Shown here: piece after piece, positions 15,781-50,532 of the stretch
Position numbering within the stretch: position 1 is the stretch's first letter
Layout: each line of letters opens with the position of its first letter
NCBI GenBank assembly: GCA_018228705.1
Contig: CP073694.1
Span: 1,364,001 to 1,428,000, forward strand
DNA from: Dysosmobacter sp. Marseille-Q4140
Lineage (GTDB): Bacteria; Bacillota; Clostridia; Oscillospirales; Oscillospiraceae
DNA: 64,000 nt
Reading direction: 5' to 3'
Notes under the pieces: generated by a model
Databases searched by the model: none
The model's input: the letters and a program-made list of their open reading frames with translations, nothing else
What the model was told of the DNA's origin: nothing
Translations under genes and position numbers: made by a program

Positions 15781-16152
15781 TTATTCATTTTTTGTTTTAT
15801 AGGCATCGCGCAGACGCTCGAAGGACTCCTGGCTGATGACATGCTCCATCCGGCAGGCGTCCTTTTCCGCCGTTACCGGGTCTACTCCAGCCTCGATCAG
15901 CCGGTCGGTAAAGAAGCGGTGCTTTTCGTAGATCTGCTCCGCCACTTCCCGGCCCACATCGGTCAGATGCAGAAAATAGTCGCTGTCCATTGTCAGGAAG
16001 CCCCCTTCCCGCAGGGTCGCCACCGCATGGCACACGCTGGGCTTTGTGACCTCCAGGTGCCGGGCGACATCCACGGAGCGCACCATACCCATCTTCTTAT
16101 GGAGAACAAGGATGGCCTCCAGATAGTCCTCCCCGGACGCATGAAGTTTCAT
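15781..16152 (-). CDS. DtxR/MntR family metal-dependent repressor
   Basis: A 123-residue metalloregulator. The N-terminal winged helix is LEAILVLHKKMGMVRSVDVARHLEVTKPSVCHAVATLREGGFLTMDSDYFLHLTDVGR. The dimer/metal domain has the expected ligands: D9 and E12 (GEDYLEA), the KHRFF histidine, and DACRMEH, which aligns with the Cys, Glu, His cluster of DtxR. There is no C-terminal SH3 domain, as in MntR. It is the last gene of the ECF-ABC operon, 18 bases after the second ABC gene. It probably represses that operon and two others through the dyads at 22686, 23787 and 29583 when Fe or Mn is plentiful. Confidence 0.88.
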   Translation of the reverse strand: MKLHASGEDYLEAILVLHKKMGMVRSVDVARHLEVTKPSVCHAVATLREGGFLTMDSDYFLHLTDVGREVAEQIYEKHRFFTDRLIEAGVDPVTAEKDACRMEHVISQESFERLRDAYKTKNE

Positions 16153-16170
16153 AAAGACCTCCCTTCGCTA

Positions 16171-17919
16171 TTAAGTCAGGCTCCATCCAGCAGCACTCTT
16201 TCGGATATTGACGAAATCCTGATAGATACCCGGCTGCTCCAGAAGTTCCTCGTGGGTGCCATGCTGTGCGATTTGGCCGTTGTCAATTACCAGGATTTGA
16301 TTGGCATTCTGGATGGTATTCAAACGGTGAGCAATCACAAGCAAGGTCTTACCCTTTACCAGTTCTGAAATAGCCTCTTGAATATAGCTTTCATTGTCGG
16401 TATCAACACTTGCGGTAGCTTCGTCCAAAATAACGATAGGCGCATCCTTCAGAATACAGCGCGCAATCGAAATACGCTGTTTCTCACCGCCGGAAAGCGT
16501 AGCGCCGCCTTCTCCAACCACGGTCTGGAACCCGTCAGGCAAAGCCATGATGAAATCATAGCAGCGGGCCTTTTTTGCCGCCTCATAGACTTCTTCCTCC
16601 GTGGCATCCGGTTTTCCCATACTAATGTTGTTATAGATGGTATCCTGGAACAAATACACGCGCTGGAATACCATGCTGATCTGATCCATCAGTTCTGCCA
16701 GCGGCACATTCCGAATATCCACGCCCCTTATTGCAACCCTGCCGGATTTTACATCCCACAACCGGGCCAACAGATTTGCAATGGTGGATTTGCCGCCGCC
16801 TGACGGTCCCACAAGTGCAGTCATGGTGTTTTTCTGCATAGAGAAGCTGATATTGTGCAGGACTTCCTTGTCCTGATAGGCAAAGCCCACATCACTAAAT
16901 TGTACTTCTGGCTGGTCCGGCTGTGCCTTTGACGGAATATGTTGATTTCCGTTATTGGGAAGCTCGGGCTCGTCCAAAACAGCTTCAATGCGGTCTAACG
17001 CAGCATTCATCACGGTCAGGCGGGTTGCTTCTCCATAAAGAGCTTTCAGAGGTCCAAAGAGATCAAAGACAAACAGCAGCACGCCCAAAAGATAAGCCAG
17101 GGAGAGTACGCCTTCCTGATGTAAAAAAACGGACAAACCGAAGATAACAGCAATGCCCACGCCATAGAGAATGTTTAGGCCAGTGGTCCACGGTGTCATT
17201 TTCTGCTCAAACTTCGTATTGACATCCCTTGATTTTTTGAAGTTTTCTGTTAATTCATCAGATTTTTCTCCAAGCAGATTGTAACTTTTGATAACGCCAA
17301 TTCCTTCAGCAAACGATAAGACCGCATCCGTCAAATTCTCGCTCTGATTTTGACGCCCGACAGCTTCCGTTAAGGAAACCCTATTCATATATTTTGCAAC
17401 CAGTGATGCCAGCAAGGTAATGATTACTGCAATCATTCCAAGTCGCCAGTCCAGTACGAACATAAACACAGCTAAAACCAAAGTAGACAGCATATAGCTC
17501 ATCATGTTTCCAATGGTACTCATAGAAACTTCCTCAATGAATACCATATCCGTACTGAGAACAGAGCTGATTTTACCAATATTCCCCGATGTAAAATAAC
17601 CCATCGGCATTTTTCTTAAATGATTTCCCAACTCCATCCTTTTATCAGCAAAGATCATAAATCCAGCGGCACTTTGCAGACGGTCGCTCAAATAGTGAAC
17701 CACTGTCTGAACCACTACAATGGCTAACAATCCAAGTCCGACAAACAGACAGGTCTTTCCAGTCAGCGTATTATCCGCAAACCCGGCCAAGACAATAAAC
17801 GCCATGAAGATTGGCATTTTGGAGAGAATGGACTCGACAAATGCACATAGAAACGCAGCTTGAATACGGCTTTTATACCTCCCGGAGAGGTTCAGGATTC
17901 TTGAAATCAATGCAAACAT
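16171..17919 (-). CDS. ABC transporter permease-ATPase fusion (YbtQ/SiaE-like position)
   Basis: A 582-residue protein with six membrane helices (about 20-300) fused to an ATPase domain. Walker A GPSGGGKST, Q-loop VFQRVYLFQD, signature LSGGEKQRISIARC, Walker B APIVILDEATASVD and H-loop VIAHRLNTI are intact, so both catalytic halves look active. It starts one base after the stop of its partner gene. Exporter-fold heterodimers in iron operons (YbtPQ, IrtAB) import metal-siderophores; the metal-type regulator in this operon supports such a role, but export cannot be excluded. Confidence 0.88.
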   Translation of the reverse strand: MFALISRILNLSGRYKSRIQAAFLCAFVESILSKMPIFMAFIVLAGFADNTLTGKTCLFVGLGLLAIVVVQTVVHYLSDRLQSAAGFMIFADKRMELGNHLRKMPMGYFTSGNIGKISSVLSTDMVFIEEVSMSTIGNMMSYMLSTLVLAVFMFVLDWRLGMIAVIITLLASLVAKYMNRVSLTEAVGRQNQSENLTDAVLSFAEGIGVIKSYNLLGEKSDELTENFKKSRDVNTKFEQKMTPWTTGLNILYGVGIAVIFGLSVFLHQEGVLSLAYLLGVLLFVFDLFGPLKALYGEATRLTVMNAALDRIEAVLDEPELPNNGNQHIPSKAQPDQPEVQFSDVGFAYQDKEVLHNISFSMQKNTMTALVGPSGGGKSTIANLLARLWDVKSGRVAIRGVDIRNVPLAELMDQISMVFQRVYLFQDTIYNNISMGKPDATEEEVYEAAKKARCYDFIMALPDGFQTVVGEGGATLSGGEKQRISIARCILKDAPIVILDEATASVDTDNESYIQEAISELVKGKTLLVIAHRLNTIQNANQILVIDNGQIAQHGTHEELLEQPGIYQDFVNIRKSAAGWSLT

Positions 17920-19704
17920 TTATCTTCCCTCCTTTGCAGTAGATACTTTCCACTCGGAGCTGTCCTGTGCAGCTTTCCATAGTTTTTGATACTCCGGGCA
18001 GGACTGAATCAATTCCTGATGTTTTCCGGTAGCCACCAGATTACCATGATCCATAACACAAATCTGGTCAGCGTTCATAATTGCGGGCAGCTTGTGAGCG
18101 ATGACAATCAGGGTCTTACCCTTCACCAGTTCCGCAATAGCAGCCTCCATTTTTTCCTCATTCTCTGGATCAGCGTAGGCTGTCGCTTCATCAAGGACAA
18201 CGATAGGAGCATCTTTTAAGATCGCCCGCGCCAAAGAAATGCGCTGGCGCTGGCCGCCAGAAAGCATTTTCCCGGCATCGCCTGCCATAGAATGAATGCC
18301 CTGGGGAAGTTTTTTCAGGAACTCCATGCACTGAGCTTTCTTTGCTGCCTCCATTACTTCCTCGTCTGTTGCGTTCAGTCGGCCAAGCCGGATGTTTTCC
18401 AACAGAGAAGTATTAAACAGATATTGATCCTGAGCCACATAGGAAATGCGACTGTTCAATGCCTCCAGGCTCATATCACAAAGTTTCTGCCCTCCAATGG
18501 AAATGCTCCCTTTCTGCGGATCGTAGTAGTGAATCAACAGTTTTGCAAGGGTACTCTTTCCAGAGCCGGATTCACCAACCAGGGCAGTTTTTTGTCCTGC
18601 CTTTGCCACAAAGGTAATATCGTGGAGGACTTCGTTTTCCGCTATTATCGGGTTTCCATCCGGGCCAGGCTGGGCCGTCTGATATGCAAAGGAAACATGA
18701 TCGTAAGAAATGTTAAAATCCTGTCCGTGAAAATCATCTTCAGCAGCTTGCAACGGTGCCGCATTTAACGTCTGTTCAAGTGCTGTAATCTTATAATTCA
18801 GATTTGGAATCGTCTCCATAAAGCTCAGAGCTTTTAGGAGAGGAATCCCGATGCTTAAGGAAAGACAAAGGACTAAAATCAAATCAGGCAATGTGCTTAT
18901 GCCGCAGAGAACAAACCACGCTCCAAGAGGCAAAGTCAAAATAACAGTGCAGGGCAGCAAACTTCCGTATATCGCCATCCAGGGCCAGGCGGCCTTATAC
19001 CATGCCAGGGTATAATCACGATAGTTCATTACATCATTGCGGAAGTTCTCGTAAGATTCACTCTCCCGGTTGAAAACCTTGACAACCTCCATGCCATTGA
19101 TGTACTCAATGATTGTATTGTTCATTTTCTGTGCAGACTGATAGTACGGTCCCATACGCTTCATTCCAACAGAGTACATAATAACCATAGAGAGCAGGCT
19201 GATCGGGATAGAGGCCAAAGACATAAGAGCCAGTTTCCAATCTGCGCAAAACATGGCAATATAAATTACCAGCGGAATCAGTAAATTTGCGATGCCCTCA
19301 GGGACAGAATGCGCAAGGAGCAATTCCAGGCTGTCCACATCATCAACAAACAGCTTTTTGATTGTTCCTGTTCCTTTTTCCTCCACAATGCCAAGAGGAA
19401 GTTTCTCAAACTTCTTTTGCAGAGATACCCGCAGCCGGAGTAATGTGTTATATGCGGCTTTATGAGAAATTGATAATCCCCATCCATACAAAACCGCCTG
19501 CAAAATAAGACAGATTAAAACCCCTATAACACGCAATAAAACAAATCCTGTCTCAACAGAATCGCCCATAACCAATGGCGAAATGACCTGATAGGCCAGC
19601 ACAAAGGGCAGGACGCCCATAAGAACGCTAACCAGTACGACCACCGTGGCCGCATACATATTTTTCTTATATGGCCCTGCGTACTCAAAGATTTTTTTGA
19701 ACAT
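17920..19704 (-). CDS. ABC transporter permease-ATPase fusion (YbtP/SiaD-like position)
   Basis: A 594-residue partner of the next gene. Six hydrophobic helices lie in residues 15-290; the ATPase has Walker A GESGSGKST, Q-loop VAQDQYLF, signature LSGGQRQRISLARA, Walker B APIVVLDEATAYADPE and H-loop VIAHKLPAI. The Glu after Walker B is present in both partners. ATG has AGGAGG upstream. A 128-base gap with a hairpin separates it from the EcfA gene, so the ABC pair may have a lower level or separate expression from the ECF genes. Confidence 0.88.
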   Translation of the reverse strand: MFKKIFEYAGPYKKNMYAATVVVLVSVLMGVLPFVLAYQVISPLVMGDSVETGFVLLRVIGVLICLILQAVLYGWGLSISHKAAYNTLLRLRVSLQKKFEKLPLGIVEEKGTGTIKKLFVDDVDSLELLLAHSVPEGIANLLIPLVIYIAMFCADWKLALMSLASIPISLLSMVIMYSVGMKRMGPYYQSAQKMNNTIIEYINGMEVVKVFNRESESYENFRNDVMNYRDYTLAWYKAAWPWMAIYGSLLPCTVILTLPLGAWFVLCGISTLPDLILVLCLSLSIGIPLLKALSFMETIPNLNYKITALEQTLNAAPLQAAEDDFHGQDFNISYDHVSFAYQTAQPGPDGNPIIAENEVLHDITFVAKAGQKTALVGESGSGKSTLAKLLIHYYDPQKGSISIGGQKLCDMSLEALNSRISYVAQDQYLFNTSLLENIRLGRLNATDEEVMEAAKKAQCMEFLKKLPQGIHSMAGDAGKMLSGGQRQRISLARAILKDAPIVVLDEATAYADPENEEKMEAAIAELVKGKTLIVIAHKLPAIMNADQICVMDHGNLVATGKHQELIQSCPEYQKLWKAAQDSSEWKVSTAKEGR

Positions 19705-19743
19705 ATAAGCCCTCCTTATATTGAGCCGTACTGTCTGTGCTTC

Positions 19744-19780
19744 AAAAACAGGAGGCCGCCAAAGTGAAGCGGCCTCCTGT
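19744..19780 (-). terminator. Intra-operon hairpin between EcfA and the ABC pair
   Basis: A 12-bp stem (acaggaggccgc/gcggcctcctgt) followed on the minus strand by TTTTTG. It looks like a terminator, perhaps partial, in front of the ABC pair. Confidence 0.7.
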
Positions 19781-19832
19781 CATTATCTTTCTATTCAGTC
19801 AAGGCGGCCCTGACATTCATAATTTCTAAAGT

Positions 19833-21299
19833 TCACTGGCGGATTCGGAAAAAATCCAAAACCTTTTTACTGCCGGATTCGTCCAATGGATAGCTTTCTT
19901 TGATTTGCCCTTTTTCCATATGGACTACATAAGAGCATCCCGCCATCACCAACTCCGGATCGTGCGTAATAACAAGAAGCGTTTTGCCCTGATCCGCGAG
20001 TGACTTCAAACCCCGCGCAACCTCCCGCATATGTTTGAGATCAAGCCCGCTGGTTGGTTCGTCAAACACAATGATCTCCCGGTTACTCACAATGGCAGAC
20101 GCAATCGCTACTCGCTGCTTCTGCCCGCCGGAAAGAGAAAGCGGGTGTCTGTCTTTATATTCCAGAAGATCAAACTGTTTAAGGATTTTATTTACAATAG
20201 TCTCATCCTCGTCATCCATGCTCAGAAGAACTTCATCTGTCACGCTTTCGGTAAATAGCTGATGGCTGGTATCCTGCATCACCATATAGCAATGTTTGAG
20301 CCGGGCTTTCCAATCAAGGGATTTTCCATCAATCTGCAAAATGCCACATTTCTTTTCAAGTCCGCAAATACAGCGGGCCAGAGTAGATTTCCCCGCACCG
20401 TTCAGACCGATAATGGCAATCGTTTCTCCAACGGGCAGTTTTGCATTTGGAATATCGAGACTTTTCGGCTCCCGCTTTTTATACGCAAAGCAAAAATTTT
20501 GAAGCTCCATCTGTTTAGCTGTATGCGTCTGATACTGATTAGCTGGTTTCAGTTTCGAGAGCGAAAACGGCCGTAGTCCCATTTCTTTTCGAGTGCTATC
20601 CGATAAACTGTCAAATTCAGCAGGTGTGTATTCCTGTTTAATCTCCCCATCTTTTACATACAGCACACGGTCCACAAGGTCGTGAAGATAGTAAAGGCGA
20701 TGTTCTGCAATCAGAATTGTTTTGCCCTGCTTTTTCCAGAGGCTCAGGACCTGCCGAAGATCGTCAATAGCAGACATATCCAAATTAGAAGATGGTTCGT
20801 CAAGGACCATAATTCCCGGCAACAATACGCTTGAAGAAGCGCAGGCTATTTTTTGTTTCTCACCACCGGACAGAGCAAACACGCTCCGCCCCATCAAATC
20901 TTCGATATGATAATCGGAAATTGTCCTGTCCATCCTTTGCAGGATGTCCTCCTGAGGATAGCCCAAATTTTCACAGGCAAAGGCTAATTCACTATCCGTA
21001 TCTACGTTGAAAAACTGGCTTTTAGGATTTTGGAACACAGATCCCACCATAGCAGCCAAGTCGTAAAGCGGCGTATCGGATACACTTTTTCCGTCCAGAA
21101 AGACATCGCCTTCTAAATTGCCCTCATAATAATGAGGCACCAGCCCGTTTACCAAACGGGTGATTGTTGTTTTCCCACAGCCGGATTCCCCTGTGAGTAA
21201 AACAAATTCCCCGGTTTTTATGGTTAGATTGATATTTCTAATACCTCCGCCGTGGGATTCTTCACCATAAGAAAAAGAAACATTTTGAAAATCTATCAT
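19833..21299 (-). CDS. ECF transporter double ATPase (two EcfA domains fused)
   Basis: A 488-residue cytoplasmic ATPase with two complete nucleotide-binding domains. The first (1-230): GESGCGKTT, LSGGEKQKIACASSS, GIMVLDEPSSNLD. The second (265-485): GLNGAGKST, LSGGQKQRVAIASA, EIIVFDEPTSGLD. In ECF importers two ATPases drive the T component; here both are on one chain. The ATG at 21299 overlaps the EcfT stop (ATGA) and has AGGAGGG upstream, so upstream in-frame codons are not used. Confidence 0.92.
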   Translation of the reverse strand: MIDFQNVSFSYGEESHGGGIRNINLTIKTGEFVLLTGESGCGKTTITRLVNGLVPHYYEGNLEGDVFLDGKSVSDTPLYDLAAMVGSVFQNPKSQFFNVDTDSELAFACENLGYPQEDILQRMDRTISDYHIEDLMGRSVFALSGGEKQKIACASSSVLLPGIMVLDEPSSNLDMSAIDDLRQVLSLWKKQGKTILIAEHRLYYLHDLVDRVLYVKDGEIKQEYTPAEFDSLSDSTRKEMGLRPFSLSKLKPANQYQTHTAKQMELQNFCFAYKKREPKSLDIPNAKLPVGETIAIIGLNGAGKSTLARCICGLEKKCGILQIDGKSLDWKARLKHCYMVMQDTSHQLFTESVTDEVLLSMDDEDETIVNKILKQFDLLEYKDRHPLSLSGGQKQRVAIASAIVSNREIIVFDEPTSGLDLKHMREVARGLKSLADQGKTLLVITHDPELVMAGCSYVVHMEKGQIKESYPLDESGSKKVLDFFRIRQ

Positions 21300-22048
21300 G
21301 GCAAAATCCCTCCTGCGGAAATTATCGGGGAAGCAATCGCCCAAAACACTACAAAGCAGCAAAACAAAATCAGCACCACATCGGCAAAATTAAATTTGAG
21401 CTGGCAAATGTTTGTGCGTTTAACAGGAGCGCCGAGACCACGGGTAATTGCCGCAGCGGAGAGTTCCTCACCGATTTTCACGGAGCAGGTAATCATCGGG
21501 ATCAGCTTATACTCCAATATCTTTGAAGATTTTTTCCCTCCAAGCTTAATTCCCCGCATTTTCATAGCATCGCTGATTGCTTCTGACTCCTGAAAAACAG
21601 TCGGAAAGAAGCGGAACATGACTGTTAAGGGGATTGTCACTTCTTTAGGCATATGAATTCTTTCCATGCCGGAAATCAATTCACTGACTGTTGTTGTTTT
21701 CACAGCATAGGCCGCCATTGCAACGCTGGGAAGAATGCGGCAAAAGAAACCAGTTGTAAACAGCACAAGAAAATTCAATATTCCTGTGAGATGCGGCAGG
21801 ACAGAGATTTGAACAGCATAAAAAGCAGCAAAAATAACAATGTATCCAACCGCTTTTCCAAATTGTTTGGAAAAAAGCAGTAACAAAGCTGGAATGGCAC
21901 AAAGAACAAGGCGGAGTAGCCCCATAGCTTCTCCGCCTGTCCCTCCCATGACAAAAATACTGATGATGAAGATGAGCAACAGCTTTGTACGCGGATCAAG
22001 CCGCAGGCCTGTTTCTGCTTTTTTGCTGAGTAGAATTTCCCGCGCCAT
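21296..22048 (-). CDS. ecfT: ECF transporter T component (EcfT/CbiQ family)
   Basis: A 250-residue membrane protein of the CbiQ/EcfT family: KAETGLRLDPRTKLLLIFIISIFV at the N terminus, then helices, and the two coupling motifs near the C terminus (SDAMKMRGIKL and SAAAITRGLGA, the Ala-Arg-Gly motifs that dock on the ATPases). It overlaps the S component stop (TAATG) and the ATPase start (ATGA), so the three are translationally coupled. Confidence 0.92.
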   Translation of the reverse strand: MAREILLSKKAETGLRLDPRTKLLLIFIISIFVMGGTGGEAMGLLRLVLCAIPALLLLFSKQFGKAVGYIVIFAAFYAVQISVLPHLTGILNFLVLFTTGFFCRILPSVAMAAYAVKTTTVSELISGMERIHMPKEVTIPLTVMFRFFPTVFQESEAISDAMKMRGIKLGGKKSSKILEYKLIPMITCSVKIGEELSAAAITRGLGAPVKRTNICQLKFNFADVVLILFCCFVVFWAIASPIISAGGILP

Positions 22049-22650
22049 TATGCAATACCAGCACGCTGGAAGTGCTTTTTACAAATGGCCTTTCCAATCA
22101 GACCACCAACAATACCAAACACAAAGCAGGCAACCAGCAGAATAGGCGCAATCCACATAGGCATATATGTATTAAGGGTAGCTGCATATTCAGCGCCGTA
22201 TCCTTCGGTCAGCATTACCATATAGCTTTCACGGTTCAGGAAAATGGGAGCAAAATTGCCAAACACCCAGATGCTGAACACGCCGCAGGAAAGGACTGTA
22301 CTTTTCGCGCTCTTGTAGTCAGCCTTTTTCAGGATCACATCAGCCAACAGGCCGCCAACGAGACCAGTTGCCATAGTAAGATAGCCGTTGCCGAAGAACA
22401 CCATAATCAGGCCAATCAGGAAACCCATAATTGCGGTCATCCCAAATTTTTTAGCCTTTGTAACATACAGCATATAGGGAATGCCGCCGATCAAAGGGCA
22501 CAGCACCGCCATCAGCGGAATAAAAATGGGGATGAAGCCAAGCATCGCCACCAGCATGACAATAACAACATAAATCACAGTGTAAATGCCGATGGTAATA
22601 AGGTCTTTGCCTTCCAATCCTTTTTTCGATTTTTCTGAGTTCATACTCAT
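22048..22650 (-). CDS. ECF transporter S component, MptD family
   Basis: A 200-residue substrate-binding membrane protein with five or six helices: LITIGIYTVIYVVIVMLVAM, FIPIFIPLMAVLCPLIGGIPYMLY, MTAIMGFLIGLIMVFFGNGYL, a helix about SKSTVLSCGVFSIWVFGNFAP, and WIAPILLVACFVFGIVGGLIGKAI. This is the MptD-type S component pattern. The substrate is not shown by sequence; the DtxR-type gene and operator point to a metal, metallophore or haem. AGGAGG lies 7 bases before ATG. First gene of the operon. Confidence 0.85.
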   Translation of the reverse strand: MSMNSEKSKKGLEGKDLITIGIYTVIYVVIVMLVAMLGFIPIFIPLMAVLCPLIGGIPYMLYVTKAKKFGMTAIMGFLIGLIMVFFGNGYLTMATGLVGGLLADVILKKADYKSAKSTVLSCGVFSIWVFGNFAPIFLNRESYMVMLTEGYGAEYAATLNTYMPMWIAPILLVACFVFGIVGGLIGKAICKKHFQRAGIA

Positions 22651-22672
22651 AAAAATGCCTCCTCTACAAACA

Positions 22673-22716
22673 AATTGGGATGTACGGTTAGCACTGACTA
22701 ACCGTACATCCCAATT
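22673..22716 (-). promoter_or_regulatory. 44-base perfect inverted repeat containing a DtxR-type dyad
   Basis: 19-base arms (22673-22691 and 22698-22716) are perfectly complementary, with a 6-base centre (cactga). The inner part is GGTTAG-N6-CTAACC (22686-22703), the dyad also found before the AraC gene and the 29549 operon. It overlaps the presumed transcription start and lies just upstream of the ribosome site, so it can act as an operator and also as an RNA hairpin. Confidence 0.75.
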
Positions 22717-22742
22717 ATATTAGTTTCTTGATGCGAGTTCAC
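22714..22742 (-). promoter_or_regulatory. Promoter of the ECF-ABC-DtxR operon
   Basis: On the minus strand the -10 TATAAT is at 22719-22714. The -35 hexamer at 17 bases (GTGAAC, 22742-22737) is a poor match, as expected for a promoter needing an activator such as the AraC protein encoded upstream. Confidence 0.55.
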
Positions 22743-22791
22743 CCCCTAAACCCGCATATTTTTACCCAAAAACGGTTTTTATGATTTTTAT

Positions 22792-23763
22792 TCAATCTAA
22801 GATTTGGGTTTCTCGATAGGTCTTAGGTAGAACACCATATTTTCTTTGAAATGCTGACGAAAAATTGCTTGGCTTTGAATACCCAACAGAAAGTGCAACT
22901 TGACCAACAGTCATTTCTGTTTCAGTAAGAAGCTGAGCCGCTTTCTCTAATCGCTGATTGATAATATAACTGTGTACTGGGCTGCCAAAAAGATTAACAA
23001 ATCCCTTTGTTAATTTGCTTACACTGAGTTGTACCTGTCTACTTAACTCCAGACAAGAAGGCGCATCAGACAAATTGCTGTCAATAATTCTTTTGGCTTC
23101 AATTAGGGAAGCACGATCTGTTCTGGATAGGGGCACACTATTGCTTACCAAAATATCAAGTTCCAATACCTCACTTAAATATATGGAGATCAACTCCAGA
23201 ACTTTTCCATCTAAATAGATATATCCCAGCCCACCACGATATAAAACAAAGTCTTTTAGTTCAGCAAGTAATCGCTCCATTGAAGGCGTGGTTTTTATTT
23301 TGGAAACGGAAGAAAACAATTTCTTTTCATATGCGGCAATCTCCTGTTCCTCAAAATAACTATTAAGTAGCTGATTGAAATAGGAGACCGGAATTTTGAT
23401 GCTTTTGAACGAGAAATTGCTACCTTTTGTATAGCAACTATATTCCATTTCACCTCTGCCCTTGTATATACAGGACTCACCTTTTTGAATACTAACAGCA
23501 TGTTCACCCTTCATTAAGTTCCACGAAATGCCGTCATTTAAGCAAAAAATAATATGAAGAAATGTTTCATTATTACTACCTTGCACATTCACATCAGATG
23601 AATAGCACATTTGCCAGTCAGAAAGTACGACTCCTTGCTTTGTCGTTGTTTGAGTAATCCTCCCCGTCCCCATTTCTGATGGCACATTCATAGAGCAAGT
23701 CCTCGGAGAATTTGCAATCATTTCGCTATATAATTTATCGAGAAAATTGTTATCTTTTATCAT
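22792..23763 (-). CDS. AraC family transcriptional activator
   Basis: A 323-residue regulator. The C-terminal 100 residues hold the two helix-turn-helix units (CLELSRQVQLSVSKLTKGF and TVGQVALSVGYSKPSNFSSAFQRKYG, then PKTYRE). The N-terminal 200 residues are a cupin-like effector domain without named match (SIQKGESCIYKGRGEMEY). The ATG at 23763 fits better than the in-frame GTG at 23775. AraC-type activators of iron genes (such as YbtA) bind the metal-chelator complex; this one reads in the same direction as the transporter operon, about 140 bases upstream. Confidence 0.88.
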   Translation of the reverse strand: MIKDNNFLDKLYSEMIANSPRTCSMNVPSEMGTGRITQTTTKQGVVLSDWQMCYSSDVNVQGSNNETFLHIIFCLNDGISWNLMKGEHAVSIQKGESCIYKGRGEMEYSCYTKGSNFSFKSIKIPVSYFNQLLNSYFEEQEIAAYEKKLFSSVSKIKTTPSMERLLAELKDFVLYRGGLGYIYLDGKVLELISIYLSEVLELDILVSNSVPLSRTDRASLIEAKRIIDSNLSDAPSCLELSRQVQLSVSKLTKGFVNLFGSPVHSYIINQRLEKAAQLLTETEMTVGQVALSVGYSKPSNFSSAFQRKYGVLPKTYRETQILD

Positions 23764-23786
23764 ATCAACACCCACTTTAGCGAGTT

Positions 23787-23804
23787 GGTTAGTTTATGCT
23801 AACC
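23787..23804 (-). promoter_or_regulatory. DtxR-type dyad before the AraC gene
   Basis: GGTTAG-TTTATG-CTAACC, a perfect dyad with the same 6-base centre length as the sites at 22686 and 29583. It lies 24 bases upstream of the AraC start. Confidence 0.7.
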
Positions 23805-23941
23805 ATGATACAACTTTTTTGCTCTCCAGTCAAGATATGGCCAAAATGCGGTCTCCGAATTGTAGTATTAGTAGAGGGTAAATACGAGGGAAGGGTTACG
23901 ATAGCAAGCACAGCCAGCGAGTACCCACTGGCGGATTTTCG

Positions 23942-23967
23942 GTTTAGGGGGACCCCTGCCCCTAAAC
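23942..23967. other. Candidate oriT of the ICE
   Basis: A perfect 9-bp inverted repeat (gtttagggg / cccctaaac) with an 8-base centre, followed by a smaller repeat (ctgggatagtcccag, 23981-23995), 60-85 bases before the MobC-relaxase pair. Position and structure fit an origin of transfer; the nick site is not identifiable from sequence alone. Confidence 0.55.
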
Positions 23968-24025
23968 ACGAAAATTGCTTGCTGGGATAGTCCCAGACCC
24001 TTATAAGAAACGGAGGCGAAGCGGA

Positions 24026-24355
24026 ATGGTAAACAGAAAGCGGAACATCCAGATGAAGTTCTGGGTGACGGAGGAGGAGAAGCGGCTCATCGACGAGAAG
24101 ATGGCGCAGCTCCCCACAAAGCGGTATGGGGCATATCTGCGGAAGATGGCGATTGACGGATACATCATTCAGGTGGACACCACCGACATCAAGGAGATGA
24201 CAAAGGCCCTGGGCTCCATCGGCCGGAACATCAATCAAATCGCCAAGAGGGTGAACGCCGGCGGCCCAACCTATCAAGCCGATATGGAGGAGATCCTGGA
24301 GAGATTGGAGCAGATATGGCAGTTACAAAGACGCATCCTATTAAGTCAACGCTGA
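24026..24355 (+). CDS. mobC: MobC-type relaxosome accessory protein
   Basis: A 109-residue DNA-binding protein. N-terminal ribbon-helix-helix (IQMKFWVTEEEKRLIDEKMAQL) and the MobC signature in the C-terminal part (LGSIGRNINQIAKRVNAGG). It helps the relaxase open oriT. ATG at 24026 is 9 bases after GGAGG. It overlaps the relaxase gene by 40 bases, showing coupling. Confidence 0.92.
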   Translation: MVNRKRNIQMKFWVTEEEKRLIDEKMAQLPTKRYGAYLRKMAIDGYIIQVDTTDIKEMTKALGSIGRNINQIAKRVNAGGPTYQADMEEILERLEQIWQLQRRILLSQR

Positions 24356-25665
24356 AAGCGGCCATCGACTATATCTGCAATCCAGACAAGACGGACGGGA
24401 AGCTGCTGGTGTCCTCCTTCGGCTGCACCGTGGAGACCGCCGATATTGAATTTGCATGGACCCGCCGCCATGCCATCGACAAGGGCACGAACCTGGGCCG
24501 GCACCTCATCCAGGCGTTTGAGCCTGGGGAGGTCACGCCGGAGGAGGCCCACCGGATCGGCATGGAGCTGGCGCGGGAGGTCCTGGGGGGAAAATATGAG
24601 TTTGTCCTCACCACCCACATAGACAGGGATCACGTCCATAACCACCTGATTTTCAATGCGGTCAGTTTCCAGGATCACCGGCACTACCACTCCAATAAGC
24701 GGAGCTACCATGAGATCCGCCGCACCAGCGACCGAATCTGCAAGGAGCATAGCCTGTCCGTCATCGTCCCAGGCCGGGACAAGGGCAAGAGCTACATCGA
24801 ACACCAGGCGGAACAGAACGGCACCAGCTACAAGGCGAAGCTGCGCTCCGCCATCGACCGGCTCCTGCCCGGCTGCGCCGGCCTGGAGGACCTGCTCCGC
24901 CGCCTTCAGCGGGAAGGGTACGAACTGAAACGGGGCAAGTACATCTCCGCCAGGGCACCGGGCCAGGAGCGGTTCACCCGATTGAAGGCCCTGGGCGCCG
25001 ACTACGCAGAGGAGGCCCTGACCGCCCGGATCGCCGGCAGGCCCAGCCCCTCCCGCCAGCCGAAGCAGCGCACCGGGAAGCCCAGCCTGCTCATCGACAT
25101 CCAGAACAATATCAAGGCCCAACAGAGCGCCGGTTACAAGCATTGGGCAACCATCGAGAACTTGAAGCGGGCGGCGGAAACGCTGAACTTCCTGACGGAG
25201 CATGGCATCGGAAGTTTGGAGGACCTGTCCGAGCGGTGCGACGGGGCGGCAGCCGCCACCGCCAGGGTGAAGGCGGACCTCCGGGCAACGGAGAAGGAGA
25301 TGGAGCGGCTGACCCTCACCATGAAGCACGCCGCCACCTATCGCCAGCTCCGTCCCCTGTATGAGGAATACCGCCAGTCCAGGGACAAGGAGAAGTTCCT
25401 CCGGGGGCATGAGGGCGAAATCATCCTGTTTGAGGCGGCGGCAAGAGAGCTGAAACGCCTGGACGCTGTACCCCTGCCCGCCACCAAACGGCTCCGGGCC
25501 GAGATGGACGGGCTCACCGCCAGGCGGACCGCCCTGCAATCGGAATATCGGAAGGCCCAGCGGGAGGAGCGGGAGTACGACACCCTCCGCCAGAATGTGG
25601 AGGCCCTGCTGGAAAAGCCAAGGGAAGCCGAACCGCAGAGGCAGCGGAATCACGAACTGGAATAG
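24316..25665 (+). CDS. Relaxase/mobilisation nuclease (PF03432, MOBP type) of the ICE
   Basis: A 449-residue relaxase that nicks oriT and leads the strand into the recipient. The N-terminal catalytic domain has the His triad THIDRDHVHNHLIFNAVS (about 94-111) and the candidate Tyr (AIDYICNP, about 17). Residues 180-240 hold the DNA-binding extension, and 270-449 form a long coiled coil (RVKADLRATEKEMERLTL). Its genes run opposite to the transfer operon. Confidence 0.93.
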   Translation: MAVTKTHPIKSTLKAAIDYICNPDKTDGKLLVSSFGCTVETADIEFAWTRRHAIDKGTNLGRHLIQAFEPGEVTPEEAHRIGMELAREVLGGKYEFVLTTHIDRDHVHNHLIFNAVSFQDHRHYHSNKRSYHEIRRTSDRICKEHSLSVIVPGRDKGKSYIEHQAEQNGTSYKAKLRSAIDRLLPGCAGLEDLLRRLQREGYELKRGKYISARAPGQERFTRLKALGADYAEEALTARIAGRPSPSRQPKQRTGKPSLLIDIQNNIKAQQSAGYKHWATIENLKRAAETLNFLTEHGIGSLEDLSERCDGAAAATARVKADLRATEKEMERLTLTMKHAATYRQLRPLYEEYRQSRDKEKFLRGHEGEIILFEAAARELKRLDAVPLPATKRLRAEMDGLTARRTALQSEYRKAQREEREYDTLRQNVEALLEKPREAEPQRQRNHELE

Positions 25666-25758
25666 GTAGGATTGTGCGCTTTGCCGGACTTTTCAAAGGC
25701 CCCTGGGCGCGGTCTGATTTTATCTGTATAATGGGAGGCAGGAATGGAGGTGCCGCCA

Positions 25759-26094
25759 ATGACGAGAACCGAGGCCGTTAAGGAATTTTTCAAGAAGGCA
25801 GTTTTGCCCGTCGCCATCGCCGGGCTGCTGTACTGCATTTTCAAATCCGCCTGCATCAGGAATGGAGAGCTGGATCTTCTCTGGCTCTGGATACTCTGCG
25901 GCCTGCCCTTCGGCATCCATCGGATGTGCGTGTGGATCGTGCCGGGCGGCGACTCCCTGGGCGGCGGCGCCGCCCTGTTTGTTCTGAACTTCGTGATCGG
26001 CGGCATCATCGGCGGCTTCGTCCTGGTGTGGCGCCTGCTGGTGGCGGCATGGTATGTGCCCCTCACCATCTACCGCCTGATCGTGGGATATTGA
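25759..26094 (+). CDS. DUF6050-like small membrane protein
   Basis: A 111-residue membrane protein with four hydrophobic stretches (AVLPVAIAGLLYCIF, LLWLWILCGLPFGIH, ALFVLNFVIGGIIGGFVLVW, LLVAAWYVPLTIYRLIVGY). I recognise it as the DUF6050-type protein often found after the relaxase in Tn1549-like elements; no function is known. The ATG at 25759 has GGAGGTG 6 bases upstream; an ATG 15 bases earlier does not. Confidence 0.75.
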   Translation: MTRTEAVKEFFKKAVLPVAIAGLLYCIFKSACIRNGELDLLWLWILCGLPFGIHRMCVWIVPGGDSLGGGAALFVLNFVIGGIIGGFVLVWRLLVAAWYVPLTIYRLIVGY

Positions 26095-26110
26095 GATGGA
26101 CAAATGATAG

Positions 26111-26140
26111 AGAGCCGGCTGGCATTGACCAGCCGGCTCT
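26111..26140. terminator. Convergent terminator
   Basis: A perfect 12-bp stem (agagccggctgg/ccagccggctct) with a 6-base loop between convergent genes. The following T content is weak. Confidence 0.7.
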
Positions 26141-26142
26141 CC

Positions 26143-27009
26143 TCATGGTGTCCGCTCCAGAATAAATTTTGTTACCAGATCCGCATACTGTTCCAGCCGC
26201 ACCATCAGCGCCAGGTGGCCGCCGGTCAGGTCGGTGACCACCGTGGGACTTGGCATCAGGGCGATCAGGTCCTCCCGGCAGGCCGGGGTGAAGGTGGTGT
26301 CGTCCTCGGACAAAATCAGCAGCACCCGCCCCTCCCACGGGGCAAAATCATTGCGGGTCATGCCAAAGTAGTGTTCTGCGTCACAGAGAAAGTCAATCAT
26401 GTGCTGTTCATAGGGCTTGGTGAGCAGTTCCATCATAGCGCCGCACAGTTCCTCCATAGCGGCCTTTTCCTGGGCTGTAAAGCCATCGGTTTTCTTTTTC
26501 ATCACCGCCCATCTCATCATCCGCTTGATGAGCGGAAACGGCAGGAAGGCAAGCCATTTTTTGAACTTCCGCTGGCTTTCGATTATCTTCATCAGATCCT
26601 GATACCCGGCCTTGCTCATGCTGCCGGACAGCGAGCAGGTGTTGGAGAGGACCAGCCCCTCCACCACTTCCGGGTGGCGGGAGGCGATGACCTGGGCCAC
26701 TACGCCGCCCAGGGACTGTCCCACCAGCCAGACCTTTTCCTTCAGGTGGCGGAGTAGTTCAGCCACGGCATCGGCAAACTCGCCGTTGTCCCCGAACTGG
26801 AGCTGATAGTCAAAGGTCAGCACCGAAAAATCCCTGGCGAACCGGGCAAAGTGCTTATAAAACAGGTCGGACAGCCCAATGCCGCCCGTGAGCAGGACCA
26901 GCGTGGCTTTGGCCTGGGGATTTTGATAGTAGCGATAGGTAAAGAGTTTCCCGCTGCTGACCGTGAAGGCAGCGGTTGGATAAACCCGGCGAAATTCTGC
27001 AAGTGTCAT
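26143..27009 (-). CDS. Alpha/beta hydrolase
   Basis: A 288-residue serine hydrolase. Nucleophile elbow VGQSLGGVV (Ser about 96), acid in LILSEDDTTF, and the general-base His in TDLTGGHLALM. The N-terminal TLVLLTGGIGLSDLFYKHF carries the oxyanion region. A cap domain (about 120-210) has MRWAVMKKK and other helices. It is the last gene of the five-gene operon starting at 29549. The substrate is unknown; in this context it may hydrolyse an ester or amide of a small metallophore-like compound, but that is a guess. Confidence 0.88.
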   Translation of the reverse strand: MTLAEFRRVYPTAAFTVSSGKLFTYRYYQNPQAKATLVLLTGGIGLSDLFYKHFARFARDFSVLTFDYQLQFGDNGEFADAVAELLRHLKEKVWLVGQSLGGVVAQVIASRHPEVVEGLVLSNTCSLSGSMSKAGYQDLMKIIESQRKFKKWLAFLPFPLIKRMMRWAVMKKKTDGFTAQEKAAMEELCGAMMELLTKPYEQHMIDFLCDAEHYFGMTRNDFAPWEGRVLLILSEDDTTFTPACREDLIALMPSPTVVTDLTGGHLALMVRLEQYADLVTKFILERTP

Positions 27010-27022
27010 GGAACTCCTCCTT

Positions 27023-27514
27023 TCAGATCCAGGTGAGCAGATACCCGTTGATTAAAGCAACAGCCAAAAACAGAAGAACTCCCCGCAGGAAAGCGTAAAA
27101 GTGTTTGCGGGGGTCCGCATATAATTCCGGACTTTCCTCGGTGCCGGAAAACCGCACCCGTTTTGTGTGCCGCCACCAAAGCAGGTCGATCACCAAAAAA
27201 TCAAACAGATTCAGCGCCTGTCCTAAAAGCAGAGTGTTCAAAAAGTTGCCTGCAAAATATTCCTGCCGGGTGAGAAGCCCCATCGCAAACAGGAGCGCAG
27301 TAAACAAAAGCAGATTTCCAGCGAAGATGGCCGCAGGACCTCGCTGCCGAATATTTCCTGATAGCTCCGGGCGGGCTTTCACAATCTTCTGTACCTCGTC
27401 CGGGTAAGTAGAAAAATTACGGATGTTTTTCTCGTCGCTCCCGGTGCCCAGCCAGCAAAAAGCCCAAAACAAGGAACACAGGAGCATACCCTCTGCCAGC
27501 AGCATTTGAACCAT
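27023..27514 (-). CDS. Hypothetical membrane protein (paralogue of the 29034-29549 product)
   Basis: A 163-residue membrane protein with four helices (MLLAEGMLLCSLFWAFCWLG, AAIFAGNLLLFTALLFAMGLL, LLGQALNLFDFLVIDLLWW, FLRGVLLFLAVALINGYLL). The segment DFLVIDLLWWRHTKRVRFSGTEESPEL parallels DLLFLDVWLIQKKAKDRFVIPGTEGHPG in the first gene of the same operon, so the two are diverged paralogues. I do not recognise a function. ATG at 27514; it overlaps no gene but lies 17 bases from the ATC-hydrolase-like stop. Confidence 0.7.
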   Translation of the reverse strand: MVQMLLAEGMLLCSLFWAFCWLGTGSDEKNIRNFSTYPDEVQKIVKARPELSGNIRQRGPAAIFAGNLLLFTALLFAMGLLTRQEYFAGNFLNTLLLGQALNLFDFLVIDLLWWRHTKRVRFSGTEESPELYADPRKHFYAFLRGVLLFLAVALINGYLLTWI

Positions 27515-27531
27515 CTTCCATCTCCCGATTT

Positions 27532-28191
27532 CTATTTTCCCTGCCGTTCTTTGTCCCAACGGGAACCCTTTTTGCAGATATAAAAGTCACAGCAGTCACC
27601 GCCGGCCGCCAGCGTTTTGGTACGGTAGAGCCGCCCACCCATCCAGTCGACGGACATCGTGTCCAGAGCGCATAGATAGGGAACCAGATGAGGAAGGCCC
27701 TCCTGTCGGCCCAGGGCACACAGACCGCACTGGTGGTAAAGGATCGTATATTCCTCTGCATCCCGGCCGAAGATGACCTCGGCATTCCACTGAAAGGGGT
27801 TCCTATCTGCATCCGCCAAAGATGCAGTCGCTGCTCGCTTATATTGAGCCTTCAAAGTAAATGCAGTCTTGGCTTTGCCCCGGAAGGCAGCCACAACCAG
27901 AGGAGAACGCATACTGGCACTTACCATGCCCTCAAAGCGCTTTTCACTCATTTTTTCTTCTGCCGCCTTATAGATAGACAGCCATAGAATTCCACCAGTC
28001 AGGCAGACCCGCAACGGGTTTTCCATCATGGAGCCAATATCCGGGGTACGGGATACCATTTGCCGGTAAATCTGCTTAGAGAGCTGCTTCAACGCAGAAA
28101 TATCCCATCCCAACTCCTGCCTTGCCAGATACCGAAATGCGGCAGGAGCGATGGCAGCCCACATCAGCCTTTCACAATATGTATAGGTCAT
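27532..28191 (-). CDS. ATC hydrolase-like protein (PF14196 type)
   Basis: A 219-residue protein that I recognise as the L-2-amino-thiazoline-4-carboxylate hydrolase family from its C-terminal pattern: YHQCGLCALGRQEGLPHLVPYLCALD, then GGRLYRTKTLAAGGDCCDFYIC. Cysteines and His in these motifs are conserved in the family. The named activity opens a thiazoline ring to S-carbamoyl-cysteine, but most relatives in Firmicutes are of unknown substrate. Its place in an operon sharing the DtxR-type dyad is notable since thiazolines occur in siderophores such as yersiniabactin. Confidence 0.75.
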   Translation of the reverse strand: MTYTYCERLMWAAIAPAAFRYLARQELGWDISALKQLSKQIYRQMVSRTPDIGSMMENPLRVCLTGGILWLSIYKAAEEKMSEKRFEGMVSASMRSPLVVAAFRGKAKTAFTLKAQYKRAATASLADADRNPFQWNAEVIFGRDAEEYTILYHQCGLCALGRQEGLPHLVPYLCALDTMSVDWMGGRLYRTKTLAAGGDCCDFYICKKGSRWDKERQGK

Positions 28192-28205
28192 GACAAACCT
28201 CCGTC

Positions 28206-29030
28206 TTACTTCCGCCCCACCAGCATCCGGGAGTCGCCCAGCATCATCATGCCCGCCCGCCGGCGGGAGCCGAAGACCTCCGTGGCCGTGTCGATGAGGC
28301 GCACGTCCTCATAGCCCATGTCCCGCAGCTTTTGGACAAAGGCATCCATGTCCCCGTACATTTTTGGCTTCATGTCATCGTTGAGCGCAAAGACGCCGCC
28401 CTTTTTCAGCACCCGCAGGGTCTCCAACAGCAGAGCCTGCTTGTCCGCACCCATTACATTGTGGTAGACATAGTTGCTCACCACGGCGTCGAAACTCTCA
28501 TCAGGGAAATCCAGCTTGTTGGCATCCCCGTGCCGGAACGCACACCTGAAGCCGACGCCCTCGCTCTCGGCATTTTTCTCGCACATGGCCTGACCATAGC
28601 CGTAGGCCACACCCCAATAGTCCATGCCGGTGATTTGGGCGTCCGGCCAGGTGAGAGCCGCCCGTATGCTCAGTGCGCCGGAGCCGCATCCAACCTCCAG
28701 AAGTTGTCCCTGCCCGTCAAAATCCAGATGGGAGAGGACGACCTGATGGACCCGCTCCATCATTCCTCCGCCGCCGAAAGCGTACTGTTTCCGTATCCAT
28801 GCACACCAGATCAGCAGGGCAAGCAGCGCCGCTGCGGCAACAGAGAACAGGATGCCGAGCGCGGCAATATGAAACATGGAAAAGGATAGCGCTGCCAGCA
28901 CCGCCGACAGGGTCAACAGCCCACCGATCATGTAAAAAACCGGGTTAGACATCCAGCTTCCGTAGTCCTCGCCGTGGGTGCCGAGTCGGATTATTTTTTG
29001 TTGCTTTTGATGTTGTTTCATTTGAACCAT
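28206..29030 (-). CDS. Membrane-anchored class I SAM-dependent methyltransferase
   Basis: A 274-residue protein. Two hydrophobic helices at about 32-80 (FYMIGGLLTLSAVLAALSFSMF and ALGILFSVAAAALLALLIWCA) precede a Rossmann methyltransferase domain: motif I LLEVGCGSGALSI, motif II ITGMDYWG, motif post-I DANKLDFPDESFDAVVSNYVYHNV, then LRVLKKGGVFALND. The membrane anchor is unusual for small-molecule methylases and suggests a lipid or membrane-associated substrate. Third enzyme-class gene in this operon; ATG overlaps none, 3 bases from the previous stop. Confidence 0.85.
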   Translation of the reverse strand: MVQMKQHQKQQKIIRLGTHGEDYGSWMSNPVFYMIGGLLTLSAVLAALSFSMFHIAALGILFSVAAAALLALLIWCAWIRKQYAFGGGGMMERVHQVVLSHLDFDGQGQLLEVGCGSGALSIRAALTWPDAQITGMDYWGVAYGYGQAMCEKNAESEGVGFRCAFRHGDANKLDFPDESFDAVVSNYVYHNVMGADKQALLLETLRVLKKGGVFALNDDMKPKMYGDMDAFVQKLRDMGYEDVRLIDTATEVFGSRRRAGMMMLGDSRMLVGRK

Positions 29031-29033
29031 CTC

Positions 29034-29549
29034 CTATCCTATCTTTTGCAATAACAGCCCCAATCCCGCCTGAGCCGCCGCCATGAGCGGGCACAGCAGC
29101 AGCGGCCATTGGAGCAGGTGCTCTGGCAGCGCATAGCCCTTCATCCAGTCTGTGAACTCATAGCCGGGATGTCCCTCTGTACCAGGGATCACAAAACGGT
29201 CTTTCGCTTTTTTCTGGATCAGCCACACATCCAGAAAAAGAAGATCGCCTATGTTGATCATCATCCACTGGATGTATCCCATCAGGGATAGACTCCAGAA
29301 TCCGGTTGTCCCTCCCTCCACAGCGCTGACCGCACCATAAAGAAGGAGGGGCAGCAGCTCTCCGAAGCAGATCCAAAGCCGGTAAAAACGGTTTTCGGCC
29401 TTTGTCGGCGGATCTTTTGCCGCCTTGATGATGGCGGGCGGATAGCAGGGAAACATCAGCCGGGGCCTATACAGCGCCACCGCCGCGGCGAACAGGTTAA
29501 AATAGGCCGCCATGGCAATCCCGTCCAGGATGGTGCGTGTCCAATTCAC
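29034..29549 (-). CDS. Hypothetical membrane protein, first gene of the dyad-controlled operon
   Basis: A 171-residue membrane protein with helices near 8-25, 62-82, 84-110 and 150-168, and a conserved soluble patch KDRFVIPGTEGHPGYEFTDWMKGYALPEH. It resembles the product of 27023-27514 in layout and in the D-x-L-x-x-D motif. Function not recognised. It follows the promoter and dyad at 29583-29640. Confidence 0.7.
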   Translation of the reverse strand: MNWTRTILDGIAMAAYFNLFAAAVALYRPRLMFPCYPPAIIKAAKDPPTKAENRFYRLWICFGELLPLLLYGAVSAVEGGTTGFWSLSLMGYIQWMMINIGDLLFLDVWLIQKKAKDRFVIPGTEGHPGYEFTDWMKGYALPEHLLQWPLLLCPLMAAAQAGLGLLLQKIG

Positions 29550-29582
29550 ATATAGCCCCCTTTCACTTGTAAGTAATCATAA

Positions 29583-29640
29583 GGTTAGCAATAACTAACT
29601 GATATGTATTCAGTATACCTTATCCCGCGTGAAAAAGCAA
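29583..29640 (-). promoter_or_regulatory. Promoter and DtxR-type dyad of the five-gene operon
   Basis: On the minus strand TTGCTT (29640-29635), 17-base spacer, TATACT (29617-29612). The dyad GGTTAG-CAATAA-CTAACT (29583-29600) follows the -10 box over the expected transcription start, as at the ECF operon. Confidence 0.7.
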
Positions 29641-48127: not shown

Positions 48128-48352
48128 AAAATCCTCCGTTTCCGACAGCCAGCCCCACTATTCCGTGGTTTCATTGTACCACGGAACGGCGGGGGCTGTA
48201 CAGCGGCAAAAGCGTTAAATTTGCTTCTTTACAGCTTTTCAATTTTCCGATTTTTATGGTATGGGTTGTCGTCCCATATTTGCAGTAGAAAAGTTCATAA
48301 CTCCGTGGTATACTCTGATTTAACAAAAAAATCAGAAGTTAAAGGAGAAAAC

Positions 48353-48553
48353 ATGAAGTATACAATAGATGAATTAACCGCGGCCAAAAGGCAAATTGAT
48401 TCAACTCTGCACAAGCTAAGAGAAACAGTAAAAACATTTGAATCAAAGGATAATTCCGAGCGTTATAAATCACAAATCACATTGGCAAAGAGAAGAATAA
48501 AAGCCTTTGAAATTGCAAATTATTTTATAGAGAATGAGATTAAGAATTGCTAA
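48353..48553 (+). CDS. Small helical protein, unknown
   Basis: A 66-residue charged protein (MKYTIDELTAAKRQIDSTLHKLRETVKTF then IKAFEIANYFIENEIKNC), with AAAGGAG 5 bases before ATG, the only plus-strand gene in this part of the element, and AT-rich. It might be a coiled-coil protein; I do not recognise it. Confidence 0.65.
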   Translation: MKYTIDELTAAKRQIDSTLHKLRETVKTFESKDNSERYKSQITLAKRRIKAFEIANYFIENEIKNC

Positions 48554-48617
48554 AGCACTTCCGATTTTCGTTCCAGCGGTCATGCTCCCTGGCATGGCCG
48601 CTTTTCCATGCCCCGGT

Positions 48618-48812
48618 TCACGCCGGATAAGTCGGCTCCTGTGTAGCAGCGGCTTCCGCTTCCAGTACCCGCGCCATTTTGTCGGCGGCTGTGGTTGTGG
48701 TGTCTTTCTTGAAATAGCCGGACACGACAAGGACGGAATTGCCCATGCGGATTTCCGTCACACAGTCAGGGCGGCGGGTGGTGCGGGTGTCGTGCTGCTT
48801 GTTATCTGCCAT
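48618..48812 (-). CDS. TnpW-like small transposon protein
   Basis: A 64-residue protein (RRPDCVTEIRMGNSVLVVSGYFKKDTTTTAADKMARVLEAE), the TnpW-type peptide often found between the DnaC-like gene and the recombinase in these elements; no proven function. AAAGGAG lies 8 bases before ATG. Confidence 0.75.
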   Translation of the reverse strand: MADNKQHDTRTTRRPDCVTEIRMGNSVLVVSGYFKKDTTTTAADKMARVLEAEAAATQEPTYPA

Positions 48813-48826
48813 AGGCAATACTCCTT

Positions 48827-50460: not shown

Positions 50461-50532
50461 TAAAACGCCGTTTCCGGGGGAAAAGGATAAATGTATCGCG
50501 TACCCTTTGACACCCACGAAAAAAGCCTTGAT

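Follow-up and report, generated by a model that had tools for sequence, protein, structure and literature searches.

Described iron regulons and the present locus

Among the described systems closest to the locus analyzed here is the equibactin locus (eqbA-N) of ICESe2, an integrative and conjugative element (ICE) of Streptococcus equi; in the part of the source available, its repressor EqbA gives a gel shift that depends on a 36-bp palindrome before eqbB, binding after EDTA treatment is raised by Fe2+ or Zn2+ and less by Mn2+, and eqbHIJ is required for equibactin-associated iron import (PMC3672683). The present locus lies in a 64,000-nucleotide stretch of contig CP073694.1 of Dysosmobacter sp. 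Marseille-Q4140 (the whole stretch is called the window), where the dyad GTTAG-N6-CTAAC stands before three transcription units of an ICE that also carries a DtxR-type gene. The EqbA operator, as printed in the part of its source available, holds this same core, with 10 of 10 complementary outer pairs. Within the limits of that source, both systems are ICE cargo with a DtxR-like repressor that has no SH3 domain, both have a 36-bp operator with the core GTTAG-N6-CTAAC and complementary 10-bp arms, and both combine an importer (the iron importer eqbHIJ in S. equi), a YbtPQ-related pair of ATP-binding cassette (ABC) proteins (eqbKL) and an alpha/beta hydrolase (EqbN). Conversely, equibactin has a siderophore-making nonribosomal peptide synthetase (NRPS), whereas no NRPS domain was found in the open reading frames (ORFs) of the window that were scanned, which is not every ORF; the window adds an AraC gene, keeps its processing genes in a separate operon and has three operators; and eqbKL possibly exports, according to its authors (PMC3672683). 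Because of the difference in NRPS, we regard the window locus as sharing regulation and uptake type with equibactin without being an equibactin locus.

The DtxR and IdeR regulons of Actinobacteria share with the window the two-domain core of the regulator and the TTAG-N6-CTAA geometry. As far as the available part of the source goes, two dimers occupy the full consensus and a single IdeR dimer is able to bind one half site (PMC8464063). The window protein has no SH3 domain. The 19-bp IdeR consensus, as given there, contains TTAG-N6-CTAA twice, 5 bp apart. Yersiniabactin uptake likewise uses a heterodimeric exporter-fold pair, which the window protein ABC1 resembles, whereas the window shows no NRPS in the scanned ORFs and adds an energy-coupling factor (ECF) importer. 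The yersiniabactin system is controlled by Fur, instead of DtxR, plus YbtA; we take the parallel to consist in an AraC gene (YbtA) and an exporter-fold pair under an iron repressor. LhaSTA is an iron-regulated ECF transporter as well, which, according to the available part of its description, sits in the isd locus, unlike the window's (PMC7299338). Among the titles listed in literature searches, none described the present operator in gut Clostridia. The EqbA-like kind is already known; the operator sharing, the module swapping and the covarying arms described below look new.

The dyad in the window, in related loci and in the family

The exact core GTTAG-N6-CTAAC occurs in the whole window only at 22687-22702, 23788-23803 and 29584-29599, that is, 3 times versus 0.02 expected, and at least 3 occurrences were reached in 0 of 100 shuffles. 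A longer pattern with two mismatches tolerated showed no excess in the window (9 matches versus 8.24 expected); therefore, the count was restricted to exact sites. The features concerned are as follows.

22686..22703, no strand: dyad 1, GGTTAG-N6-CTAACC, upstream of the ECF operon
23787..23804, no strand: dyad 2, GGTTAG-N6-CTAACC, directly 3' of the -10 box of the AraC promoter
29583..29600, no strand: dyad 3, GGTTAG-N6-CTAACT as read on the + strand, upstream of the five-gene operon
22673..22716, no strand: 44-bp palindrome around dyad 1, perfect 19-bp arms, 3-base overlap with TATAAT

The three positions and the GGTTAG half-sites had been given in an initial annotation of this DNA, and the exact core was indeed found at all three (the third ending in CTAACT) and nowhere else in the window. 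Its placement of the dyads at a -10 box or near a start is correct for all three as well: TATAAT of the ECF leader is 10 nt from GGTTAG, the AraC promoter reads TTGACT-17-TATCAT with GGTTAG starting right behind TATCAT, and TATACT of the five-gene operon is 11 nt from dyad 3. The "same 6-base centre" holds for length only, as the sequences of dyads 1, 2 and 3 (CACTGA, TTTATG and CAATAA) differ. A consensus promoter scan gave weak evidence near sites 1 and 2 (5 promoters versus 4.0 in shuffles) and called no promoter at site 3.

A search of genome contigs with the DtxR protein yielded 157 encoding stretches, and from the best 80 of them we obtained 75 loci (1,303,572 bases); as a control, the reversed pattern was counted in the same loci. 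The core was found 98 times at gap 6 (82 of these sites are distinct, since some loci overlap or are close relatives) and once at any other gap from 0 to 15, compared to 7 matches of the control at gap 6. Outside long ORFs were 89 of the 98 dyads and 77 were within 250 bp of a long-ORF start, compared to 0 of 7 control matches in both respects. The best window-like neighbour was ECF_S for 35 dyads, ABC1 for 26, AraC for 7, ECF_T for 4, ABC2 for 2 and orf171 for 1, with none for 23. The exact dyad was present in 62 of the 75 loci, and in 49 of the 54 loci of at least 15 kb; L157, from genome G001, has the window's layout, including all three dyads. The annotated arrangement, one operator before three units with a DtxR-type gene on the same ICE, is thus borne out by the frequency of the dyad in these loci, its intergenic placement and its EqbA-type core. 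Frequent random occurrence in the chromosome, which the annotation had named as refuting its reading, does not refute it when checked in G001 (9 dyads versus 3 reversed matches); of the 5 G001 contigs in which dyads occur, 4 contain a DtxR-domain gene as well.

For the chromosomal typA of the window (8187-10010), identity to its counterpart is 93% in G083 and 83% in G001 (120 family genomes searched); therefore, the host is very probably a member of the family surveyed. In 200 genomes of this nearest family, the strict dyad was found 306 + 293 = 599 times, and the reversed pattern 20 + 26 = 46 times, a 13-fold excess, with 137 genomes carrying the former and 31 the latter. For GGTTAG-N0to12-CTAACC, the gap was 6 in 54 of 65 cases (tallied by hand). 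Dyads per genome averaged 1.4, 2.2 and 7.9 for 0, 1 and at least 2 DtxR matches (27, 142 and 31 genomes), compared to 0.1-0.3 for the control. Among the matches listed (28 genomes), 11 of 93 dyads, in 9 genomes, were near a DtxR gene, versus 0.06 expected. Six genomes with a single resident-type DtxR match (46-52%) have a dyad 103-217 bp upstream of that gene; in addition, a by-eye comparison placed a dyad about 110-165 bp upstream of a DtxR gene in G004, G005, G017, G018, G035 and G042. G183 (L162-L165) has 9 DtxR matches and 33 exact dyads, many paralogous repressor-transporter clusters sharing one operator in this genome. Chance as the origin of the dyad is ruled out by the window excess, the constancy of the gap, the intergenic placement and the family-wide excess.

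Exact dyads number 7 in G083, the nearest chromosomal relative identified (3 for the control), and 1 in G156, of the same genus (1 for the control); 10 of 11 candidate ORFs were scanned for the gene assignment. In G083, two dyads lie beside or before DUF3793 and two beside or before a flavodoxin-domain gene, and the others are placed in this way at feoA, feoB and a second feoB; the single dyad of G156 precedes feoB. Among ORFs beside dyads (53 of 55 scanned), which were taken in both directions and many of which are not genes, we found FeoA 3 times, FeoB 3, DtxR 2, FecCD 1, ABC exporter-type proteins 6, DUF3793 5 and AraC 3. Genes of DUF3793 recur behind dyads (L198, L002 and others; these 5 of 53 ORFs, and G083), and their products are probably part of the iron response. 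Given the family excess, the proximity to DtxR genes and the placement at iron genes, we read the dyad as the iron operator of the family, borne by the ICE cargo. A regulon "independent of the host's own metal control", as had been annotated, is not supported, given the same dyad before feoA, feoB, DUF3793 and flavodoxin genes in G083 and before resident dtxR genes.

Several observations weigh against the dyad as a DtxR operator. The exact dyad is missing from 13 of the 75 loci, 5 of which are among the 54 loci of at least 15 kb; in these 13 loci and in L168, L171 and L172, one-mismatch sites totalled 7, versus 6.65 in shuffles, those of L168, L171 and L172 directly preceding ECF_S, ECF_S and DtxR, respectively. 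Dyads are also present in 12 of the 27 genomes without a close DtxR relative; in 7 such genomes checked, a PF01325 match was found in 7 of 7, over the cut-off in 6. The recognition helix has C-H in cargo repressors versus mostly S-R in resident ones; therefore, common binding by both is not certain. The IdeR half site, as given in the available part of its source, is TTAGG-N4-CCTAA with fixed inner CC/GG, whereas the dyad has a free inner base and fixed outer G/C (PMC8464063). The dyad is best read as a predicted one-dimer DtxR site with the fixed base moved outward. Finally, loss of eqbKL in S. equi left the iron phenotype, and possible efflux is proposed by the authors in the part of the source available (PMC3672683).

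With these points taken into account, a DtxR-controlled iron regulon of the EqbA kind on the ICE is well supported as a prediction, and it appears highly probable that the dyads are operators of an EqbA-type DtxR repressor that would govern the three ICE units and be wired into a shared iron network.

Cargo, repressor and rival explanations

The genes of the cargo and of the element are as follows.

15781..16152, - strand: DtxR/MntR-type regulator, 123 aa, last gene of operon 1, no SH3-like third domain (PF01325 + PF02742)
16171..17919, - strand: ABC half-transporter 2, exporter fold (PF00664 + PF00005)
17920..19704, - strand: ABC half-transporter 1, exporter fold, YbtPQ/IrtA-like (PF00664 + PF00005)
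19833..21362, - strand: ECF double ATPase (two ABC_tran stretches; ECF ATPase models below cut-offs)
21296..22048, - strand: ECF T component (PF02361 CbiQ)
22048..22650, - strand: ECF S component, MptD/Trep_Strep family (PF09605; TIGR02185 above cut-off)
22792..23775, - strand: AraC-type regulator with its own dyad (PF12833)
29034..29549, - strand: orf171, gene 1 of the five-gene operon, no family
28206..29030, - strand: S-adenosylmethionine methyltransferase, gene 2 of that operon (PF08241 and others)
27532..28191, - strand: PF14196 (ATC hydrolase family) protein, gene 3
27023..27559, - strand: orf178, gene 4, no family
26143..27009, - strand: alpha/beta hydrolase, gene 5 (PF00561)
24316..25665, + strand: ICE relaxase between the two cargo blocks (PF03432)
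12088..13482, - strand: ICE integrase (PF00589)

The genes of operon 1 are, in order, ECF S, T and A, the pair of exporter-fold ABC proteins and DtxR, the last place having been assigned to the DtxR/MntR-like gene from the outset; domain matches and ORF layout also agree with the other gene calls made then (ABC pair, ECF A/T/S, AraC, five co-directional ORFs). The ECF set is complete, with S, T and A components together (two ATPase stretches in one protein); the listed TTG start of the ATPase overlaps the T gene, and the real start is probably further downstream. Hallmarks of the ICE in the window are the integrase, the relaxase and a type IV secretion system coupling protein. Downstream of the iron cargo is a tetracycline-resistance ribosomal protection gene of the TetM/TetW/TetO/TetS family (56156-58075, - strand, NF033148 above cut-off). 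Near it (46511-55618) are a large serine recombinase (46511-48127), a second relaxase (50909-52543) and a DDE transposase (54641-55618), which suggests further, nested mobile units.

When ABC1 was compared to the PDB (best 60 of 235 matches considered), YbtPQ (6p6i, 8vsi) led the chains of half size, followed by IrtA; larger eukaryotic double proteins, which match twice, outscore them. The fold class and these nearest chains make the ABC pair a candidate YbtPQ/IrtAB-type importer, with direction and substrate being predicted. Relatives of the PF14196 protein are confined to 7 of the 291 class genomes. In G478, of another family (L160), methyltransferase, PF14196, hydrolase and AraC genes are joined to an ECF-ABC cluster with three dyads; no DtxR gene was found in that L160 stretch. 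The cargo (AraC, ECF importer, YbtPQ/IrtA-like pair and five-gene operon) is most likely devoted to a ferric metallophore of foreign origin, and uptake of one made by others is the likeliest role because the scanned ORFs hold no NRPS domain. An importer of heme or another iron compound, under the same regulation, appears rather unlikely: in the part of its description available, LhaSTA imports heme in Staphylococcus lugdunensis as an iron-regulated ECF system (PMC7299338), but the YbtPQ/IrtA-like pair, the AraC gene and the linkage to methyltransferase and hydrolase genes speak for a metallophore, as does the need for eqbHIJ in equibactin-associated import, within what is available of that source (PMC3672683).

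The nearest solved chains of the DtxR-type protein (15781-16152) are MntR, DtxR and IdeR. Cargo-type DtxR was found at class level in 7 of 391 genomes (E 1e-40); the best matches on plasmids were on Subdoligranulum plasmids (75% and 58.5%), whereas no relative was found in viral contigs, and the plasmid search with the S component gave 5 records, all below 60%. The differing recognition helices, and the joint travel of repressor and operators on the ICE, would fit a private regulon, in which the dyads are used by the ICE-borne DtxR only and ignored by host repressors. This we consider improbable, and it was set aside in favor of sharing, because resident iron and dtxR genes have this core upstream as well and the base preferences of cargo dyads are similar to those of chromosomal dyads.

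In the alignment of the 123-aa regulator, D9, C100, E103 and H104 are at metal-ligand positions; we take C100, E103 and H104 to be as in DtxR and D9 as in MntR (Asp at MntR D8). The site thus mixes an MntR-like Asp9 with a DtxR-like Cys100; the resident relative L012 has Asn9, matching the residue of EqbA at its position 13. A manganese-sensing, MntR-like regulator and hence a manganese regulon is improbable, for although an Asp is at what we take to be the MntR D8 position and the best NCBIfam matches of the regulator are MntR models (all below cut-off), Cys100 is as in DtxR and EqbA, and dyads precede feoA, feoB, fecCD and flavodoxin genes.

Under the preferred reading, each dyad would be sized for one repressor dimer, given the TTAG-N6-CTAA geometry. 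At ample intracellular iron(II), the repressor would bind between the -10 box and the leader and shut off the gene of the AraC regulator, the operon of the importer (ECF S/T/A, ABC pair and dtxR) and the five-gene operon, with dtxR inside the importer operon providing feedback. Scarce iron would release all three. The importer promoter has a poor -35 region and probably also requires AraC, as a putative activator, with its ligand, presumably in parallel to Fur plus YbtA; the products of the five-gene operon would probably modify or open the imported metallophore. Since this dyad also stands at iron genes of the chromosome and at resident dtxR genes, the ICE cargo would be wired into the shared iron network, and the repressors could probably cross-regulate.

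Palindromic promoters and apparent swapping of modules

Among the three window dyads, only site 1 has long palindromic arms; the 44-bp palindrome, which the initial annotation had not noted, has dyad 1 as its centre and, as RNA, folds at -37.4 kcal/mol (z -7.8). In 194 distinct dyads (all loci fetched by then plus the window), complementary outer arms, defined as an arm score of at least 6, were found in 22, compared to 151 of 60,000 random places. In an ungapped alignment of 17 of these 22, each of the ten pairs that lie outside the core forms in at least 15 and up to 17 of the 17 rows, with both-side changes in 3 to 9; it should be noted that the rows were picked for palindromy, which biases pairing upward, and that related rows count more than once. 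The informative part of the covariation is that pair types differ between rows. The arm covariation was 0.615 versus 0.198 in shuffles, 0 of 500 of which reached the former value. Hence, the outer arms of these 36-bp palindromes covary without sequence conservation, in size and form as in the EqbA operator. At the -10 box, the five pairs farthest from the core are formed in 9 to 11 of 17.

The palindromic dyads are typically 30-39 nt before the start codon (19 of 22), and 16 of 22 have a -10-like hexamer (score 5 or 6) a short distance upstream, versus 19 of 89 other dyads. A plain RNA hairpin was not accepted as the full cause, since the left arm adjoins the -10 box and is mostly upstream of the expected transcript start; mismatches outside the first pair are 4 G.T and 0 A.C on the sense strand, which is suggestive and few in number. 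A terminator scan flags the site-1 palindrome on both strands (3 terminator-like sites versus 1.3 in shuffles). An intrinsic terminator was rejected; on the operon strand, the palindrome precedes the genes, which makes an attenuator possible, though not favored. At palindromic transport promoters, a shared GGAGTAG/GGGTTGG-like element about 20-45 nt upstream of dyads (L101, L104, L105, L107, L075 and others) coincides in part with the -35 region and is a possible AraC site.

The import modules appear to be swapped under the operator. Where the relaxase is at least 90% identical to the window's (seven named loci), DtxR is 90-96% and ABC1 32-84% identical; L116 shows the reverse, with ECF and ABC at 95-99% and DtxR at 77%, and its ECF leader is unlike the window's, yet again holds a palindromic dyad. 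Across the 75 loci, the similarity of DtxR to the window is unrelated to that of ABC1 (rho -0.03) and weakly negatively related to that of ABC2 (rho -0.23, p 0.04), figures that are rough, as window-like ABC matches are unspecific.

Tentatively, and with less than even confidence, we suggest that the ICE backbone retains the repressor together with a universal iron operator, the two forming a socket for swapped AraC-ECF-ABC modules, each incoming module coming at once under the host-shared iron network. To the repressor site, a class of transport promoters would add a 36-bp palindrome (10+5+6+5+10; Clostridia and the streptococcal EqbA site), whose arms, free in sequence and complementary, may act as a structure-level promoter signal, such as a leader stem-loop, a cruciform or a melted non-template hairpin. 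The covarying arms raise a question implicit in the 36-bp operator of EqbA, namely why the palindrome far exceeds the need of one dimer. With modules swapped under one operator, it would become possible to trace how gut bacteria exchange iron sources. As a testable iron operator, GTTAG-N6-CTAAC would apply to a large family of gut Firmicutes. It could also hold mobile cargo in check, an importer new to a host meeting the same iron signal at once.

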